A DNA stretch of 36,269 nt. Source: a virus. Under the pieces are notes generated by a model. The model was not told the origin of the DNA. It was given only the letters and a program-made list of their open reading frames with translations, and did not search any database. Shown piece after piece: positions 2,365-36,269 of this stretch; position 1 is the stretch's first letter, and the number at the start of each line of letters is the position of its first letter. The DNA lies in IMG/VR virus record IMGVR_UViG_3300045125_000075, positions 1 through 36,269 of that record; one strand, given 5' to 3'. The translations under genes were made by a program, and so were the position numbers.

Positions 2365-2454
2365 TGACTCCCAAACCACAACACAACACCCACCACCACC
2401 ACACGCCATGAGCAGCACCACCACCAAGCCCGCCATCACCACCGCCTAGCCCCG

Positions 2455-2492
2455 AACAAAAAGCCGGGCAGCCCCGCAACGGACTGCCCGGC
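2455..2492 (-). terminator. Rho-independent terminator, leftward
   Basis: A perfect 9-bp stem GCCGGGCAG/CTGCCCGGC (2463-2471 with 2484-2492) with a 12-base loop. Read on the minus strand it is followed immediately by TTTTTGTT. It would stop leftward transcripts entering from the integrase side before they reach the early control region. In the plus direction there is no T-run. Confidence 0.65.
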
Positions 2493-2535
2493 CCACAACA
2501 CGCAGCCACCACGGCCGCAGCATCTCCGCCACTCT

Positions 2536-2978
2536 ATGCCCCCACGTCCCCCCGTCAAGCCCCGCCGCCGTCGCCGCCTCGGCCGGCCGCCTGGCACCAC
2601 CAAAACGCCGCGCATCACCGCGCAGGCCCGGATCCTCGAGACCACCGCCGCCTGGCTGCTGCAGCAGCACCCCGGCGCCCGCAGCCTCCACCACGCCGCC
2701 GCCCTCGTCCTCGATGCCCTCGCCCAGGCCGCCCAGCCACCCCTGGCGACTGGACCCAGCGCGGCCTCTCCGTCGCCCTCCGCATCGGCCAGCCTGAGCT
2801 CTCCACCGTCCTCCGCCACCTCGTCGCCACCCACTACCTCACCACCCACCACCACCGCAGCCCCCAAACCGGGCGCGCAACCATTTTATATCGCCTCGCC
2901 GCCGCTCGGGACAAGGGCATCAAACAGGCCAAAGTCCTGAAAGGTTACTTTGGTATCCAGAACACCTCGGATCAGTGA
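2536..2978 (+). CDS. Winged-helix-like DNA-binding protein, frameshifted (~147 aa)
   Basis: Starts at ATG 2536 with a basic, proline-rich N-terminus containing RRRRRLGRPPG, which resembles an AT-hook. It continues ILETTAAWLLQQHPGARSLH, then changes frame near 2745 into DWTQRGLSVALRIGQPELST and VLRHLVATHYLT. That second half reads as a winged-helix: recognition helix QPELSTVLRHLVAT, then a His-rich beta-wing and TGRATILYRLAA. The stop TGA (2976-2978) lies inside the first attC-like hairpin, so the protein ends NTSDQ, almost as the next cassette product ends NVSDQ. Role is probably sequence-specific DNA binding. It is the first gene of the cassette-like array. Confidence 0.5.
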
Positions 2979-3047
2979 CCGCGCACCCATGAATATGAAT
3001 ACACGACAACCCGCCCAGAGCGGTTCACTGCATCCGATTTGTTCGGC
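2957..3047. repeat. attC-like site 1
   Basis: Ends CCAGAAC (2957-2963) and GTTCGGC (3041-3047) pair through AAC/GTT. An inner stem pairs CGGATCAGTGACCGC (2968-2982) with 3020-3036. The right arm carries two extrahelical bases, T3024 and C3031. The loop is 37 bases. About 80 bases are repeated nearly exactly in site 2, 300 bases downstream. Confidence 0.6.
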
Positions 3048-3054
3048 GTGGTGG

Positions 3055-3276
3055 ATGTATGATAACCACACCTTCCAGCCAGTGGACATAACCGCCCCAA
3101 AATGGCGAGAGTATGTGATGACGTGCTACGACATCGACGGTTTCGGCTCATTCTTCGTGCGCGAGACTCCAAATGGAAAAACAATCTTTGACCTGCACGG
3201 TAGAGGGAAGGAAGGCCGAGAATCATTTGCTGATGCACTTTATGCGTGGACTCCGCCGAACGTCTCGGATCAGTGA
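3055..3276 (+). CDS. Cassette-encoded hypothetical protein A (73 aa)
   Basis: The ORF between attC-like sites 1 and 2 starts at ATG 3055, eight bases after the site-1 core, and stops inside site 2. It begins MYDNHTFQPVDITAPKW and contains YVMTCYDIDGFGSFFVRETP and a Gly/Arg-rich turn before ending NVSDQ. The open frame extends upstream through site 1, but that part is the repeat and not conserved coding. Predicted as a small mixed alpha/beta soluble protein. I do not recognise it, which is usual for integron cassette products. Confidence 0.55.
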   Translation: MYDNHTFQPVDITAPKWREYVMTCYDIDGFGSFFVRETPNGKTIFDLHGRGKEGRESFADALYAWTPPNVSDQ

Positions 3277-3346
3277 CCGCGAACTCCATGAATACGAATA
3301 CACGACAACACGCCGAGAGCGGTTCACTGCATCCGATTTGTTCGGC
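3255..3346. repeat. attC-like site 2 (best example)
   Basis: Outer boxes GCCGAAC (3255-3261) and GTTCGGC (3340-3346) are perfectly complementary. Four-base unpaired spacers (GTCT and ATTT) follow. A 15-bp inner stem pairs 3266-3280 with 3319-3335, leaving two extrahelical bases in the right arm, and the variable loop is 38 bases. This R box, spacer, L box, loop order is that of an attC site. Confidence 0.65.
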
Positions 3347-3347
3347 A

Positions 3348-3632
3348 TTGGCTGACGACTCGGAGCCGATAACCGAGGAGTGGTTGCTTGCAAACGGCTT
3401 CCGACATGTGCCGTCCGACATGGGGCCTGAATACAAAGACCATCTCGAAAAGGATGGCCTGAACCTGTGGGAGTTTAACGGGACTGGAGCTTGGCTGTGG
3501 GACGTGCATGATTCCGTGGAAATGCGGACTCGTGGCAAGCTCAGGCTGCTGGCTTTATGGCTTGGTCTGGATTTGCCGAACGCTGGCGGTCTGGCAACCC
3601 AGCCAGCGCCACAAGATCCCGCTTCAAAATAG
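3348..3632 (+). CDS. Cassette-encoded hypothetical protein B (94 aa)
   Basis: Lies between attC-like sites 2 and 3. The likely start is TTG 3348, two bases after the site-2 core, because the frame is protein-like from there (ADDSEPITEEWLLANGFRHV) and no ATG occurs until residue ~29. It continues GLNLWEFNGTGAWLWDVHDS and ends in the loop of site 3 at TAG 3632. The ITEEWLLANGF opening followed by Trp-rich strands is a pattern I associate with small hypothetical proteins common on phages and mobile elements. No activity can be inferred. Confidence 0.5.
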   Translation: MADDSEPITEEWLLANGFRHVPSDMGPEYKDHLEKDGLNLWEFNGTGAWLWDVHDSVEMRTRGKLRLLALWLGLDLPNAGGLATQPAPQDPASK

Positions 3633-3676
3633 AACTCCCACGCTGGCAGGGGTTGCCAGCACCGACCTTGTTATGC
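3575..3676. repeat. attC-like site 3
   Basis: Left box GCCGAAC (3575-3581) and right box GTTATGC (3670-3676) are complementary at 5 of 7 positions. An inner long stem pairs 3591-3608 with 3641-3659 (10 bp plus 7 bp around a small bulge). An outer short stem GGCGGT/ACCGACC has one extra base (A3665). The stem sequence differs from sites 1 and 2 while the architecture is kept, as expected for attC sites. Confidence 0.5.
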
Positions 3677-3977
3677 CTCTTCGAGTTACCATTGAACTGA
3701 TCCCGCGGGGGGACGAATCCCGAAAAGAAAGCTCGCTGTCGTGGACATCGAGAACGACGGCACCGCTGGCGATATGCGCGGAGGTGGCGATGTTGGAAAC
3801 TACCTCGTCAGGGCTTCCGCTGAAATGCAGGGTGGCTTCGATGAGTTCGCCGCGTTCACGATGGGGCCGCTGAAACGCGGCGACTACATCGACACGGCGA
3901 TTGATGTTCTGGCCGTGATGCACTCCGCGAGGATGCCGCGCCGTGGATTCATCACGGGGCGCGTCGAGAGTGGATAA
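3673..3977 (+). CDS. Cassette-encoded hypothetical protein C, frameshifted (~100 aa)
   Basis: The ATG (3673) is part of the site-3 core GTTATGC. It begins MPLRVTIELIPRGDESRKE and, after a one-base frame change near 3725, continues KLAVVDIENDGTAGDMRGGG and DVGNYLVRAS, ending TGRVESG at TAA 3977. The opening TIELIPRGDE followed by a DIENDGTG-like strand and GNYLV matches a small beta-rich hypothetical family I have seen in phage genomes; its function is unknown. Seven bases after the stop is GCATAAC, the complement of its own 5' core, possibly half of a broken fourth attC site. Confidence 0.5.
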
Positions 3978-3983
3978 TTCTGG

Positions 3984-3990
3984 GCATAAC
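3984..3990. repeat. Possible attC half-site (GCATAAC)
   Basis: Exact complement of the GTTATGC core at 3670-3676, placed 7 bases after the cassette-C stop where an R'' box would be. No matching downstream core lies within a plausible distance, so the site would be truncated. A seven-base match alone is weak. Confidence 0.3.
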
Positions 3991-4047
3991 AGTGATTATC
4001 CAGAAGTCATTTCCAGATAGCACCCCCAAAACCGGAAAGACCACCTC

Positions 4048-4318
4048 ATGAAACTCGCCGAAATGCTCAGAACAAGTGCGCATCACCTGCCGCATGCGGC
4101 GGCTCTCCTACCACACCGAAACCTGTTACACCGGCTGGATCACCCGTTTCGCCAGGCACATCATCGACTGCCCACCCGAAAGCACCCGTGAAGAACGCGT
4201 CCGCAGCTACCTCGAAAATCTTGCTCCTCGGTGCTCCGCATCCACCCAAAACCAAGCCCTCAACGCCATCGTCTTCCTTTACCGCGATGTCTTGCAGCAG
4301 CCCCTCGCTCCTTTTTGA
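4048..4318 (+). pseudogene. Truncated integron-type integrase: N-terminal SAM-like domain only
   Basis: Starts MKLAEMLRT at 4048, changes frame once near 4073, then reads RRLSYHTETCYTGWITRF and SASTQNQALNAIVFLYRDVL, ending LAPF at TGA 4318. These correspond to the N-terminal core-binding region of IntI/XerC recombinases (HYSxRTExxYxxWIxRF; STxxQALxALLFLYxxVL). The protein stops exactly where the catalytic domain should begin, so the Arg-His-Arg-Tyr residues are absent. It is convergent with the phage integrase and follows the cassette array. Most likely a remnant of an integron integrase; a functional stand-alone DNA-binding or interfering domain is possible. Confidence 0.65.
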
Positions 4319-4319
4319 C

Positions 4320-5603
4320 TTAGGCTGGAAAGTGATGATCACTGCTGCCAAGAGGCGCGGCCTTCGCTCGCAGCCCCGCCACGGTGCCCGTCAATGAGCC
4401 TTCAGCCCACAGCCCCCACCGCATCCTCACCCAGGCCCACCGCACCCCCAGCCAGCTCGCATAAAATCTCTCCGTCGTGCTCGCACTATCGCCAAGGAAA
4501 TATGCCGCCGCCCCCAGCCCCTGCTGCATGTAAACTTGCGATGCCGCGTGCATGCGCAGCTCATGGTTCGACTTTGTGCGGTCAGGAATAAACCGCCTCA
4601 AAAACTCTGAATGGCGACGGTAAATCAGATCGTAGCGCGTCGTCTCCCCCAGCCCATCCGCAATCAGGAAACCCACCTTCTGCAGCAGCACCCCCGCCAG
4701 CTCCGCATCCAGCAGCAGTCGCCTCGGCTTCCCATGCTTCAGCACCTGCCAGCCCGGCCGGTCCTTCACCACCAGGCACCAGCGCCCCTGCGCATCCTGC
4801 TCCAGCCATTCGCGCCGCGCCGCCAGCAGCTCCTCAGCCCGCAGCCCAAGGCGACGCAAGCACACGTTAATCAGCCACAGCTCCGGCTGCGACTCCCGCA
4901 GCCCTTCCACCTCCGCCTTCATCCGCTCAAACACCCCAGCAGGCCACGGCACAAACCCATGGCGCGCCTCCCGCAGCTTCGGCAGCTTCCGCAATTCCAG
5001 CACATCCGGCACCTTCAGTCCCGGCATCAGCCTCTCACGATGAGACATCAGCGCCAGCGCATTCCGCACCGTCCCATTCAGTCCCGAGTTCACCGGCAGC
5101 GCATCCACCCAGTTCACCCCTTACCCTCACGACCCTGCCCCAGCGAAAACAACCGCTCCACCGTCACCCGCGCCAGCGCCTTATCCATCGTCACCTCGAA
5201 AGGCCGCACCTCATCCACCACCCGCGCCAGCCGCAGCAGCGCACTCTTATACGTCCGCAGCGTCCCCGAATCCACCACCTTATCCCCCTGATCCAGCACC
5301 GCCAGCACCTCACCCACCGTCGCCCACGCCCCCGCACCAGCGCCTTAGATCCCAGATTCAGGATCAGCCGCTTCACCTCCTCGATCCTACCCGCCGCCAC
5401 TCGTTCCGCCTCCGCAAGAGTCGTCCATCGCGTCGATTCCTGCACCCGCTCGGAAGAGCCCGGCACCATAAAATCCATCGTCCAGCTCGCCGCCGCCGTC
5501 CGTTTGTAAAACCGCACCGCCACCCCGCGATCCGTTTAGAAACCGTCTTACGGCCAGCCTTATCAGTCGAGGCAGCAGGGGCAGGGGAAAGCGTCGTGCT
5601 CAT
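4320..5603 (-). CDS. int: Tyrosine integrase (phage), frameshifted
   Basis: Catalyses site-specific recombination between attP and a bacterial tRNA-Leu site. The locus starts at ATG 5603 (MSTTLSPAPAASTDKAGRK) and passes through frames covering VRFYKRTAAASWTMDFMVPG, TYKSALLRLARVVDEV and NWVDALPVNSGLNGTVRNAL. The catalytic domain shows the first Arg in LRRLGLRAEELLA, the HxxR motif as HELR, and the C-terminal GDSASTTERFYA with the nucleophilic Tyr. The usual second His/Trp position is Asp in LGDSAS, worth checking. At least three indels occur. The true stop may be TGA 4402 (reading GLGEDAVGAVG) instead of 4320. It lies immediately downstream of attP, as is typical. Confidence 0.8.
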
Positions 5604-5819
5604 GTCACAGCGTCACACGCCATGTCACACTCAGCAAGCGCAAATTGCGCTTATTTGCACCCTTTAGAGCAAGATTAGAGCAAGATCAAAACCCCACACA
5701 ATCCTAGCAAAACTGCTTTTTCCCTTGATAACCAGTTAAAAACTAACTTGAGAGAGGTGCCGATGGCCGGACTCGAACCGGCAAACAAGTTTCCTTGTAG
5801 CAGATTTTAAGGCACTTGG
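5604..5819. other. attP: attP region
   Basis: The 216 bases between the integrase and the exported-protein gene contain the tRNA-Leu 3' fragment (core). Likely integrase arm sites are a tandem 11-base repeat TTAGAGCAAGA (5664-5674 and 5675-5685) and an inverted repeat GCAAAT/ATTTGC (5640-5658). Three TGTCACA-like copies lie at 5602-5630, next to the integrase start. A single tRNA fragment and no host genes mean this is the joined, excised form and not a prophage with two att sites. Confidence 0.7.
5756..5810 (-). tRNA. Partial tRNA-Leu(UAA): attP core
   Basis: On the minus strand this gives the 3' 55 bases of a class-II tRNA: anticodon TAA with loop TTAAAA and stem TCTGC, a variable arm ACAAG-GAAA-CTTGT, a T-arm GCCGG-TTCGAGT-CCGGC, and an acceptor 3' strand CATCGGC-A-CC. 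The 5' half (acceptor, D-arm, anticodon 5' stem) is absent, so it is not a functional tRNA gene. Such fragments restore the host tRNA 3' end after integration. Confidence 0.8.
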
Positions 5820-21059: not shown

Positions 21060-22058
21060 TTAGCTTGTTGCGCGGAAAGCAGCCAAGCCACGCGGGTTCT
21101 TCACGCAGAGTCCCACAATGGCGCTCAGCACCCCACGCGGGCCGCCACCCAGATCCGGCAGCGGATCATACTTCACCGGCTGTTGGTAGCGCAGCTCCAG
21201 CATATCCATGTCCAGCGCGTAACCGCGTTGTGGCACGTTTGCTCCGGTGGCATAGTTCCAAGCCAAAAAAGTCGAAAGCACCAGCTCATAGGTGCCAAAG
21301 TCACCCGTGAAAATCTGGATGTTATCGAGCCACTTGCCTTCATCGCCGCGAAGGCTGCGCTTGATCGCAGTATCGGAGCCCTGCGCAGGTTGGTAGCCCA
21401 CCATCGTGGTGAACTGCTTCTTCAGCGCGGTGCCGCAAACAAGCATGTAAGTGGTTTCTTTGCCCACTTCACGGAATTGGCTTTCCATGACGTTATTGAC
21501 TGCCGCCGTGGTCAGCGAAGCCATAGCCGTGCTGTTGATGCTGGTCGAGGGCGTGCGGAAAAGCACATCCACCGGCAGCGTCGTTTGTGCGGTGTTGCTG
21601 ATCCACGAGCCAAGGCCGTGACCGCGATAGCCCAAGGTGCCATCATCGGCGCGGGCCACGTTGTCACTGCTGAAAGCGGCTTCCATGTCACGCTTCAGCT
21701 CGATCTGTTTCTTGATGATGGCCTTCGCCATCTCCTTTTTCAGACCGATGCCAGCCACGTCAGACAGGTTGGAGCGCTTGCTCACCTTGGGCAGTCGGCG
21801 AAACTCCTCGGTGTAGTTCGAGAGAAGGCGGCGGTTTTCAGCAGCATCCTCCGTGGTGGAAACATCTGAACCATCCGGCACACCGCCCACTTGCGGCGCA
21901 GCATAAGCATCCGCTTGCCAAGAGAAAAGACTGTTGGCAGGGTCGGAGCCCTTCTTGATGGAGGTGATGATGGGAGTGGACTTTGCATCCACGACGGCAA
22001 TGACATCGGAGAGCGATTCACGCTTACCGACTTGTATACGTTCAAAGGTTTGAGGCAT
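21060..22058 (-). CDS. Major capsid protein, SU10/DUF5309-like (332 aa)
   Basis: Forms the icosahedral shell. Unbroken ORF opening MPQTFERIQVGKRESLSDVI, followed by TPIITSIKKGSDPANSLFSW, QADAYAAPQVGGVPDGSDVS, an acidic-basic helix KKEMAKAIIKKQIELKRDME AAF, and later DIQIF-like strands (WLDNIQIFTGDFGTYELVLS). The VGKRE.LSD.I, TPI.TSI.KG......FEWQ and ELKRDMEAA..S signatures are those of the HK97-fold SU10 major capsid family. Length is in the normal range. It follows scaffold and portal genes. Being one of the few long genes without an indel, it is a useful anchor for phylogeny. Confidence 0.88.
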   Translation of the reverse strand: MPQTFERIQVGKRESLSDVIAVVDAKSTPIITSIKKGSDPANSLFSWQADAYAAPQVGGVPDGSDVSTTEDAAENRRLLSNYTEEFRRLPKVSKRSNLSDVAGIGLKKEMAKAIIKKQIELKRDMEAAFSSDNVARADDGTLGYRGHGLGSWISNTAQTTLPVDVLFRTPSTSINSTAMASLTTAAVNNVMESQFREVGKETTYMLVCGTALKKQFTTMVGYQPAQGSDTAIKRSLRGDEGKWLDNIQIFTGDFGTYELVLSTFLAWNYATGANVPQRGYALDMDMLELRYQQPVKYDPLPDLGGGPRGVLSAIVGLCVKNPRGLAAFRATS

Positions 22059-29227: not shown

Positions 29228-29629
29228 TCAAAACGGGATGTCATCGTCCTCGAAGCCCTCGGTCATCACCTGGGCGGATTCACGGCTCTCGGCGCTAGCT
29301 GGCCGGGCGCTGCGCTGGCCGCCGGGCTCATACTCGCGCGCATTGCCGAGGAACGGCATCTGCGGCGGATTCGGCCCTTCCCGCTCGGCCTTGCTCACGC
29401 TCTCCTTGCACCAGTGCGTGTTGCCATACTCGTCCTTGCCGTCCTTGTTCGGCACAAAGTCCAGCGCCAGCCCCAGCCGCTCCGGGTTCCGCTCATTCAC
29501 GCGGATGCGCGACTTAGACAACACAATCACGAGGCAGTCCTCCGCCTCGCCGGTCTTGGATTTCAGCTTCATGCGAAACGCTCCTTGGAGCTTCGCGGGG
29601 TCAATGTAGGCATTCAGTTTGTTGGGCAT
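29228..29629 (-). CDS. Single-stranded DNA-binding-like protein (133 aa)
   Basis: Starts at ATG 29629 (MPNKLNAYIDPAKLQGAFRM) behind a CA-rich leader. The body contains short beta-strands (EDCLVIVLSKSRIRVNERN; GLALDFVPNKDGKDEYGNTH) and then a disordered linker, ending EGFEDDDIPF. A disordered linker followed by the acidic DDDIPF tip is the protein-interaction tail of SSB proteins. The OB-fold is compatible in size but not conserved enough to assign a family, so a phage-type ssDNA-binding protein is inferred. Lies near dnaB-type and replication genes in the same operon. Confidence 0.65.
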   Translation of the reverse strand: MPNKLNAYIDPAKLQGAFRMKLKSKTGEAEDCLVIVLSKSRIRVNERNPERLGLALDFVPNKDGKDEYGNTHWCKESVSKAEREGPNPPQMPFLGNAREYEPGGQRSARPASAESRESAQVMTEGFEDDDIPF

Positions 29630-29660
29630 GTGGGTGTGGGTGGTAAGTGTGAGTCTGGTA

Positions 29661-31219
29661 TTACTTGCTGGTGAAAAACGCCTTGAAGGTGTCGTGACCA
29701 TAGCAGCCGCGCGTTTCGTCGATGACGAATTGGACCGAGAGGCTTTCCCTTGTAGTTTTTGCTGCTCAGGAAATGAGACACGCCCTGCTGGCACGCACCT
29801 GTGATGGCGCGATACGCGACAATCATTTCCTTCAGCGAGGTTTTTGTCTCCGTCGTCCAAGTCAGATAAGGCTCTGTATCGCGCTTACCCATTTTGAGCA
29901 AAAGATCCGCGCGAGCTTCGCTTAGAGTTGATCCGTGCGCGGTGTAACCGTCACGTTGAACAATATAGCTTATTTTTGTTTGCCCAACGATCCGCACACG
30001 TTTGACGCCACCTCGAGAATCAATGACCCGAGCAAGGATACCATCGTCTAAAGTTAGATTATGCGAAGCAAGAGCACCCACTAACGCAGCACGACAAAAT
30101 GACTTAGCTGAAGGGCAATCTCTCTTTGCAAGCTTCGGAAACGCCGTCTGGGTGTTGGCATCTCTGACGTCAAGGCTGTCACCGATGGTTGTGAGTTTAG
30201 GAAACGCCGTCTGGATGTCGGCACCTCTGACAAAAAGGCCACCACCAATCGTCGTGAGTTTAGGAAACGCCGTCTGGGTGTTGGCACCGCTGACAAAAAG
30301 GCCACCACCAATCGTCGTGAGTTTAGGAAACGCCGTCTGGGTGTTGGCATCTCTGACGTTAAGGCTGTCACCAATCGTCGTGAGTTTTGGAAACGCCGTC
30401 TGGGTGTTGGCACCGCTGACGTCAAGGCTGTCACCGATGGTTGTGAGTTTAGGAAACGCCGTCTGGATGTCGGCACCTCTGACAAAAAGGCCACCACCAA
30501 TCGTCGTGAGTTTAGGAAACGCCGTCTGGGTGTTGGCATCTCTGACGTTAAGGCTGTCACCAATCGTCGTGAGTTTTGGAAACGCCGTCTGGGTGTTGGC
30601 ATCTCTGGCGTCAAGGCAGCCACCAATCGTCGTGAGTTTAGGAAACGCCGTCTGGGTGTTGGCACCGCTGACGAAAAGGCCGCCACCGATGGTTGTGAGT
30701 TTAGGAAACGCCGTCTGGGTGTTGGCACCGCTGGCGTCAAGGTAGCCACCAATCGTTGTGAGTTTAGGAAACGCCGTCTGGGTGTTGGCATCTCTGACGT
30801 CAAGGCTGTCACCGATGGTTGTGAGTTTAGGAAACGCCGTCTGGGCGTCGGCACCGCTGACGAAAAGGACGCCACCGATGGTTGTGAGTTTAGGAAACGC
30901 CGTCTGGGTGTTGGCACCGCTGACGAAAAAGGCCGCCACCGATGCTTGTGAGTTTAGGAAACGCCGTCTGGGTGTTGGCACCGCTGGCGTCAAGGTAGCC
31001 ACCAATCGTTGTGAGTTTAGGAAACGCCGTCTGGGTGTTGGCACCGCTGGCGTCAAGGTAGCCACCAATCGTTGTGAGTTTAGGAAACGCCGTCTGGGTG
31101 TCGGCACCGCATGCATAAAGAGTGCCGGTAATTGTTTCAAATTGGTAAACTATTCCAGGTTGTGCGAATAAGTCGCCTTGGTGCTTGTGTTCGATAGGGT
31201 TTTTGAATTTCTGTTTCAT
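29661..31219 (-). CDS. Repeat protein: sixteen 21-residue modules plus C-terminal domain, frameshifted
   Basis: Starts MKQKFKNPIEHKHQGDLFAQ at 31219. Sixteen tandem modules of consensus TIGGxLxVxxANTQTAFPKL follow. These vary mainly at GGGLFV/GDSLDV/GGYLDA and at SGANTQ/RDANTQ/RGADIQ, and should fold as a beta-solenoid or LRR-like rod. A frameshift at 30926-30930 comes from five A where sister modules have four. The C-terminal domain contains YIVQRDGYTAHGSTLSEARA, VAYRAITGACQQGVSHFLSS and, after a frame change near 29735, QFVIDETRGCYGHDTFKAFF, ending TSK at TAA 29661. Similar rods with this tail occur as uncharacterised phage proteins; function unknown. Confidence 0.75.
30123..31110 (-). repeat. 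63-bp tandem repeat array (16 copies)
   Basis: The motif GGAAACGCCGTCTGG (plus strand) recurs every 63 bases from about 30136 to 31082, once after 64 because of one extra A. Blocks of two or more units are duplicated nearly exactly (for example 30174-30290 and 30426-30542, four units apart), showing recent slippage or unequal recombination. The unit is a multiple of three, so several frames stay open. Confidence 0.9.
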
Positions 31220-35995: not shown

Positions 35996-36269
35996 CTATT
36001 GGCAGCGCGCGCGCGCGCGCCCGACCCTCCCCCCATCGCTTTCAGCGCCGGCCACGCGGCCCAGCCCAGCCTGACCGGCATCCAGATCGGCCCACGCGTG
36101 GCATGGAGTGTGACACGGTGCGGCACCTCCCTCGTATGAGGTCGCAATAAACAGCAGATTGCACATCCGCTGCACCGTGACACGCAGCCCCGCGCACCTG
36201 GTCACCGGCACCGCCCTGGGCGATCCCGGCGAGCGCCGCCGCCGCGGCCGCCATTGCGAAACTTCGCCC
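35996..36269 (-). CDS. Cys/Ala-rich small phage protein (3' part; runs in from the right edge)
   Basis: The second copy of the gene that starts at 360. Reading inward it gives ALAGIAQGGAGDQVRGAACH, then in another frame ATSYEGGAAPCHTPCHAWAD and LDAGQAGLGRVAGAESDGGR, ending at TAG 35996 after a (GC)7 microsatellite. Compared with the left copy it differs at several bases and indels, which change the frame in different places. Together the two copies allow the gene to be reconstructed; neither alone is reliable. Confidence 0.5.
   Translation of the reverse strand, partial: GEVSQWRPRRRRSPGSPRAVPVTRCAGLRVTVQRMCNLLFIATSYEGGAAPCHTPCHAWADLDAGQAGLGRVAGAESDGGRVGRARARCQ
36007..36269. repeat. Terminal direct repeat, right copy
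   Basis: Matches positions 1-266 in the same orientation. The GC dinucleotide run is one unit longer here. Differences include a CCC/CGC change, an ATC/ACC change, and GCCACAT versus TCGCAAT. Confidence 0.85.

Follow-up and report, generated by a model that had tools for sequence, protein, structure and literature searches.

A temperate phage genome with a probable decayed copy of a phage-resident integron

Integrons are platforms with which bacteria exchange genes in the form of cassettes, and clusters of attC sites that lack a working integrase are known as CALINs. The prevailing view treats integrons as bacterial platforms that are occasionally acquired by phages. Integron parts already known from phages are mostly captures of bacterial integrons or lone CALINs (PMC9892861). 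Qi et al. (2023) reported attC, attI, and IntI in phages, the cases being Vibrio, Shewanella, or class 1 captures or lone CALINs, and found that phage attC sites recombine with IntI1 and attI1 (PMC9892861). That paper describes neither a clade of phage IntIs nor reversed cassettes nor a genome in which a single IntI accompanies three attI sites, and in a non-exhaustive search of the literature we found no phage-specific IntI clade, systematically reversed cassettes, or phage with one IntI and several attI sites. Another phage record with an IntI-like gene is virus Rctr41k (KX853513), in which the gene is annotated as xerD and the protein is 43% identical over 82% of the query; it lies at 4680-5678 of that record among co-directional small genes and methyltransferases.

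We analyzed one stretch of 36,269 nucleotides (the window), the IMG/VR contig IMGVR_UViG_3300045125_000075, together with related phage contigs. With a probability of roughly 87%, the window is the genome of a temperate phage that carries a decayed, inactivated copy of a phage-resident integron, a system that is intact in sister phages. The window copy, flanked by the phage integrase on one side and further phage genes on the other, would consist of an attI site, three cassettes delimited by attC sites, and the initial quarter of intI. Like bacterial chromosomal integrons, the phage loci have an integrase of the IntI family (TIGR02249), attI on the 5' side of intI, the same attC polarity, and exchange at G/TT. 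They differ in that intI usually stands beside terminase genes and in that cassette genes run toward attI, whereas those of cellular controls run away from it.

The window holds the genome of a temperate phage in essentially complete form. Its ends overlap in a terminal direct repeat (1-266 and 36004-36269; 267 bases, 95% identical with gaps), and DNA of the nearest relative, G029 (IMGVR_UViG_3300043446_003888), connects window position 36269 to position 1 in alignment; the genome is thus essentially complete and either circular or circularly permuted. IMG/VR classes the contig as linear despite this repeat. G029 is collinear with the window at ~84-96% identity over most of the common DNA, including the phage genes that flank the array on either side. 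From a conserved block (window 2451-2575) to the stop of the phage integrase gene there are 268 bases in G029 versus 1,827 in the window, and the array, attI, and an intI stub fill most of the surplus; G029 itself has no IntI match. The phage integrase (4402-5603, minus strand) is split over several frames in the window and is an intact 405-residue protein in G029 (DNA alignment with G029 contig L075, 432-1649); it has a weak match to the integrase family phrog_1. Next to it, in G029 as well, we read from the sequence the 3' half of a tRNA-Leu(UAA) gene (5757-5818, minus strand), which tRNA prediction on the window did not call and which is likely the phage attachment site.

The sequence-only reading of this DNA had proposed a small cassette array with three hairpin sites, and a structural scan bore these sites out. 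We used a purpose-built scanner for AAC...GTT pairs that enclose an inner stem, and it returned exactly three sites in the 36 kb, compared with 0, 1, and 1 in three shuffled sequences. All three sites are read on the minus strand. Site 1 (2957-3047) closes the attI-distal cassette and has an unpaired C and T on its plus-strand right arm; site 2 (3255-3346) is nearly identical to it and has perfect GCCGAAC/GTTCGGC ends; site 3 (3575-3676) keeps the architecture of the other two with a different sequence, again as had been described. When each strand was folded singly, both strands of every site folded better than nearly all dinucleotide shuffles (z from -3.1 to -4.7). The complementary 7-base ends were confirmed throughout: the right end of site 1, GTTCGGC, pairs with the left end of site 2, GCCGAAC; sites 2 and 3 match likewise; and the right end of site 3, GTTATGC, agrees with GCATAAC at 3984-3990. 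The window thus has three attC sites with G/TT cores whose ends all agree, in support of a temperate phage that carries attC sites and cassettes of the integron type. It is extremely improbable that the hairpins are plain terminators or repeats that arose by chance: hairpins are frequent between short genes and terminator stems also fold well, but AAC/GTT cores, paired extra bases, agreeing ends, and a neighboring attI and intI set these sites apart. An Rfam scan of the window gave no match, and a DNA pattern of the attC right arm, searched in viral contigs, gave one chance match, in the halovirus-like contig L003. A MAFFT alignment of attC sites made for a covariance model misregistered the right arms and was left unused.

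Three cassettes result, all read on the minus strand, with matching ends and their genes on the plus strand. Cassette 3 (2963-3260, core to core) holds a 95-residue gene (2989-3276), and cassette 2 (3261-3580, core to core) a 114-residue gene (3288-3632), neither with a Pfam match; the cassette 2 protein (3288-3629) had no match in annotated phages. Cassette 1 (3581-3989) adjoins attI, and its gene (3673-3977, with one frame break near 3730) encodes a protein with a 65-78% identical relative in phage contig L044.

Two features beside the array, an attI site and an integron-integrase stub, had been overlooked. The attI site (3988-4032, minus strand) has its exchange point between G at 3990 and T at 3989; upstream of intI the minus strand reads TATCTGGAAATGACTTCTGGATAATCACTG, followed directly by the exchange point and TT. 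Relatives of the phage have an attI-like sequence upstream of intI in which conservation ends exactly at G/TT and sequences diverge beyond. We built an attI profile from this conserved sequence. It scored 37.4 bits against the site that stands beside intI in the window (E 5e-9) and recovered the intI loci of the phage group. Shuffled DNA gave no matches, and even the best match among the cellular loci was unconvincing (E 0.76). Positions 3982-3990 had also been considered as a fourth, truncated attC; the sequence beside them is conserved across phages as attI, which rules this out.

The stub (4048-4318, plus strand) keeps the N-terminal ~85 codons of a gene of about 335, and its frame is broken near 4070. 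Its open reading frame at 4076-4318 matches PF13495 (78 bits), the best NCBIfam match is TIGR02249, "integron integrase" (52.6 bits, partial), the best PDB match is IntI4 (2a3v), and the stub is up to 81% identical to full-length phage IntIs. A full-length IntI with a tyrosine recombinase catalytic domain was not found in the window, as the gene ends after ~85 codons, before that domain. Four plus-strand genes had been assigned to the array; the frame at 4076-4318 is the N terminus of intI and not a cassette gene, and the one at 2536-2940 lies beyond the array, its first bases being kept in a relative without an integron at that place. The label CALIN holds insofar as the window has no working integrase, and fails insofar as attI and an intI stub adjoin the array; their presence points to a decayed integron rather than bare captured cassettes.

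Small frameshifts were dropped as a sign of gene decay, since off-frame indels of 1-2 nt occur throughout the contig. Nearly all window-versus-G029 indels are of this size and are dispersed along the whole length; in the two longest aligned blocks, 63 of 68 and 37 of 41 are not multiples of three, and they break TerL, the phage integrase, and other genes. They look like sequencing errors from uncorrected reads, to judge from the alignment, and with so many in the contig, the boundaries of open reading frames are approximate. The missing three quarters of intI is a loss on a different scale, part of which could be an assembly fault in such an error-rich contig.

A search of IMG/VR with an 80-residue query from the stub found 27 loci with IntI relatives, 23 of them in one group in which nearly all have a complete integrase of ~335 residues. 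All phages compared here are metagenomic contigs. Representative full-length proteins score 331-354 bits against TIGR02249 (curated cutoff, 265), and the catalytic R, H-x-x-R, H, and Y are invariant. Terminase, portal, helicase, or phage integrase genes are present in 21 of the 23 group contigs, and intI usually lies directly upstream of terS, in contigs from separate metagenomes. The genome G011 has intI overlapping terS and terS overlapping terL, and in G009 a full intI converges with the phage integrase gene with an array upstream, which is the layout of the window with an undamaged gene. It is very improbable that these contigs are bacterial integron regions misclassed as viral or misassembled onto phage DNA. 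Arrays of small unknown genes can mislead viral classifiers, and the window contig is rich in errors; against this stand the overlapping genes of G011, the recurrence of intI directly upstream of terS in separate metagenomes, and the collinearity of both window flanks with G029.

In a phylogenetic tree the group IntIs clustered as a single clade (support 97/95), and the 80 closest cellular IntIs listed from GTDB fell outside it. Among the GTDB matches listed, the closest cellular IntIs are 42-50% identical to the phage clade, and among the matches listed from 388 Verrucomicrobiota genomes no IntI exceeds 51%. Judged from the GTDB matches listed, the clade is likely absent from cells. The best IntIs of annotated phage records are ~46% identical to it, and those of the phages of Qi et al. 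at most ~46%. Four viral contigs (L026, L027, L028, and L030) encode more distant IntIs, 39-52% identical to the stub, which fall outside the clade in the tree.

The polarity of the sites and of the genes does not coincide in these phages. Extra-helical bases on the R''-L'' arm of attC are known to determine which strand is recombined (PMC2727003). The unpaired C and T of sites 1 and 2 in the window sit on the right arm of the plus strand, which makes that strand the bottom one and gives the sites a minus-strand reading, in agreement with attI. The cassette genes lie on the plus strand, start at or inside attC (2989, 3288, and 3673), and are directed toward attI; the cassettes are therefore reversed relative to bacterial ones, and a Pc promoter at attI would read their genes antisense. 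The same arrangement was seen across the group. Extra bases fall on the right arm versus the left 22 to 3 in phages and 33 to 2 in cellular controls. Codon usage favored the intI strand as the coding one in 18 phage cassettes and the opposite strand in 0, whereas chain-matched cellular cassettes with attC polarity as in phages gave 0 and 6. The named proteins encoded next to attI, N6/N4 and Dam DNA methyltransferases and HTH proteins, are all on the intI strand and reach or enter attI.

Co-directional intI and cassette genes are also found in the inverted integron of Treponema (PMC3607928). We accordingly weighed whether polarity had been misread, the attC top strand being the plus strand and the genes normally oriented in an inverted-integrase integron of the Treponema kind. 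This is quite improbable, as the attI core GTT is on the minus strand with conservation on its intI side, and the extra bases sit on the plus-strand right arm with the bias seen in cellular controls. In addition, the Treponema intI is transcribed toward attI (PMC3607928), whereas the phage intI runs away from it and the cassettes themselves are reversed. With attI on the 5' side of intI in the window and its relatives, a Treponema-type inverted integron was ruled out.

These features also bear on the source of the array. It had been proposed that the phage carries captured cassettes that a host integrase could reshuffle, and a few cassettes taken from a host chromosomal integron, a plain CALIN either static or moved by host IntI, would accord with the absence of a working intI from the window and with the captures known in Vibrio and Shewanella phages (PMC9892861). 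We consider this origin unlikely. The window has an attI and an intI stub, and both are of the phage type; among the cellular IntI matches listed, identity does not exceed ~51%; the attI profile has no convincing cellular match; and the cassette genes are reversed relative to cellular ones. A system owned by the phages is the more likely reading, given the phage-type attI, the reversed cassettes, and sister phages with intact IntIs of a clade that is not among the cellular matches listed. On the best reading of these comparisons, what is novel in the phage-resident lineage is its IntI clade, its cassette polarity, and its multiple attI sites.

Whole cassettes, bounded by the cores, distinguish phages that are otherwise nearly identical. 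In one such pair, L009 and L012 (99.6% identical over 5.7 kb), a 520-base unit is common to both, and L012 has an additional 1.8 kb between this unit and attI; L010 lacks 2.6 kb present in L012, with the junction at CAGAAC; and L014 and L015 (98-100% identical) differ in a 304-base unit and in the content adjoining attI. Conversely, L012 and L018 are ~69-82% alike elsewhere, yet have 1,011 bases in common at 99.8% identity with ends at the cores. Neighboring ends matched in 17 of 27 cases across the phage arrays, versus a mean of 2.8 and a maximum of 10 in 2000 shuffles. Comparison of related phages had been set in advance as a test of the array, which survives it, since the AAC/GTT cores are where cassettes have been gained or lost. 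No recent movement was seen in the window array itself.

Several genomes have more than one attI. In G026 (L059/L060) one intI is accompanied by three attI sites at different places in the genome (9709-9667, 14349-14307, and 38397-38441), and the attC ends adjoining the second and third match. G011, G012, G014, and G022 have two attI sites each; at the second site, G011 and G014 are identical over 620 bases through GTT inclusive and then diverge. L034 and L037-L039 have attI with no IntI found in the stretch examined. The window array occupies the phage-integrase locus, where other phages have attI too.

Taken together, these sequence comparisons suggest that the phage group runs its own cassette-swapping system. 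Intact in sister phages, it would comprise a phage-clade IntI, attI on its 5' side, and a cassette array. By analogy with known integrons, IntI would fold and cut the single-stranded attC bottom strand, and circular cassettes would enter attI between G and TT. Cassette genes start at or inside their own attC and run toward attI, co-directional with intI and, where adjoining, with terS and terL; with this orientation, they are probably transcribed from phage promoters and not from an integron Pc. The methyltransferase and HTH cargo would plausibly serve counter-restriction and regulation. The odds seem to us about even that one IntI of the phage clade serves several attI sites per genome and trades reversed cassettes, carrying methyltransferases, HTH proteins, and unknowns, between co-infecting phages, remodeling their accessory genes. 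The window array would be frozen unless an IntI acts in trans. If phages do have a specific IntI clade, attI sites that belong to it, and multiple arrays in a genome, with cassettes of opposite polarity, they would be maintaining the platform themselves. The consequences would be a concrete mechanism by which phages rapidly trade genes, DNA methyltransferases for example; a second pool of cassettes, distinct from that of bacteria; and a natural test of what sets gene orientation in cassettes.

The phage belongs to a group that is poorly represented in GenBank, as the best annotated phage match of its SU10-type major capsid protein (21060-22058, minus strand) is only 32% identical. Terminase and portal proteins are mostly without a Pfam or PHROGs match; TerL was called from phrog_2 for G029 and from homology, and TerS was named from position and homology only. 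The tRNA-Leu half matches two Verrucomicrobiota genomes at 86-87%, and no relatives of the capsid protein were found in 68 genomes of the matched family. No host was identified by the IntI search of 388 Verrucomicrobiota genomes, the tRNA-Leu half, or the capsid protein. Between an ssb-like gene and a helicase gene, the window encodes tandem, leucine-rich-repeat-like protein repeats (DANTQTAFPKLTTIGG...; 29614-31140) that are missing in G029, whose flanks stand close together. A further insert lies between the ssb-like gene and terS of G028, which is 86-97% identical to the window: where the window has ~5 bases, G028 has 1.25 kb (L077, 427-1676) with two end-matching attC sites.
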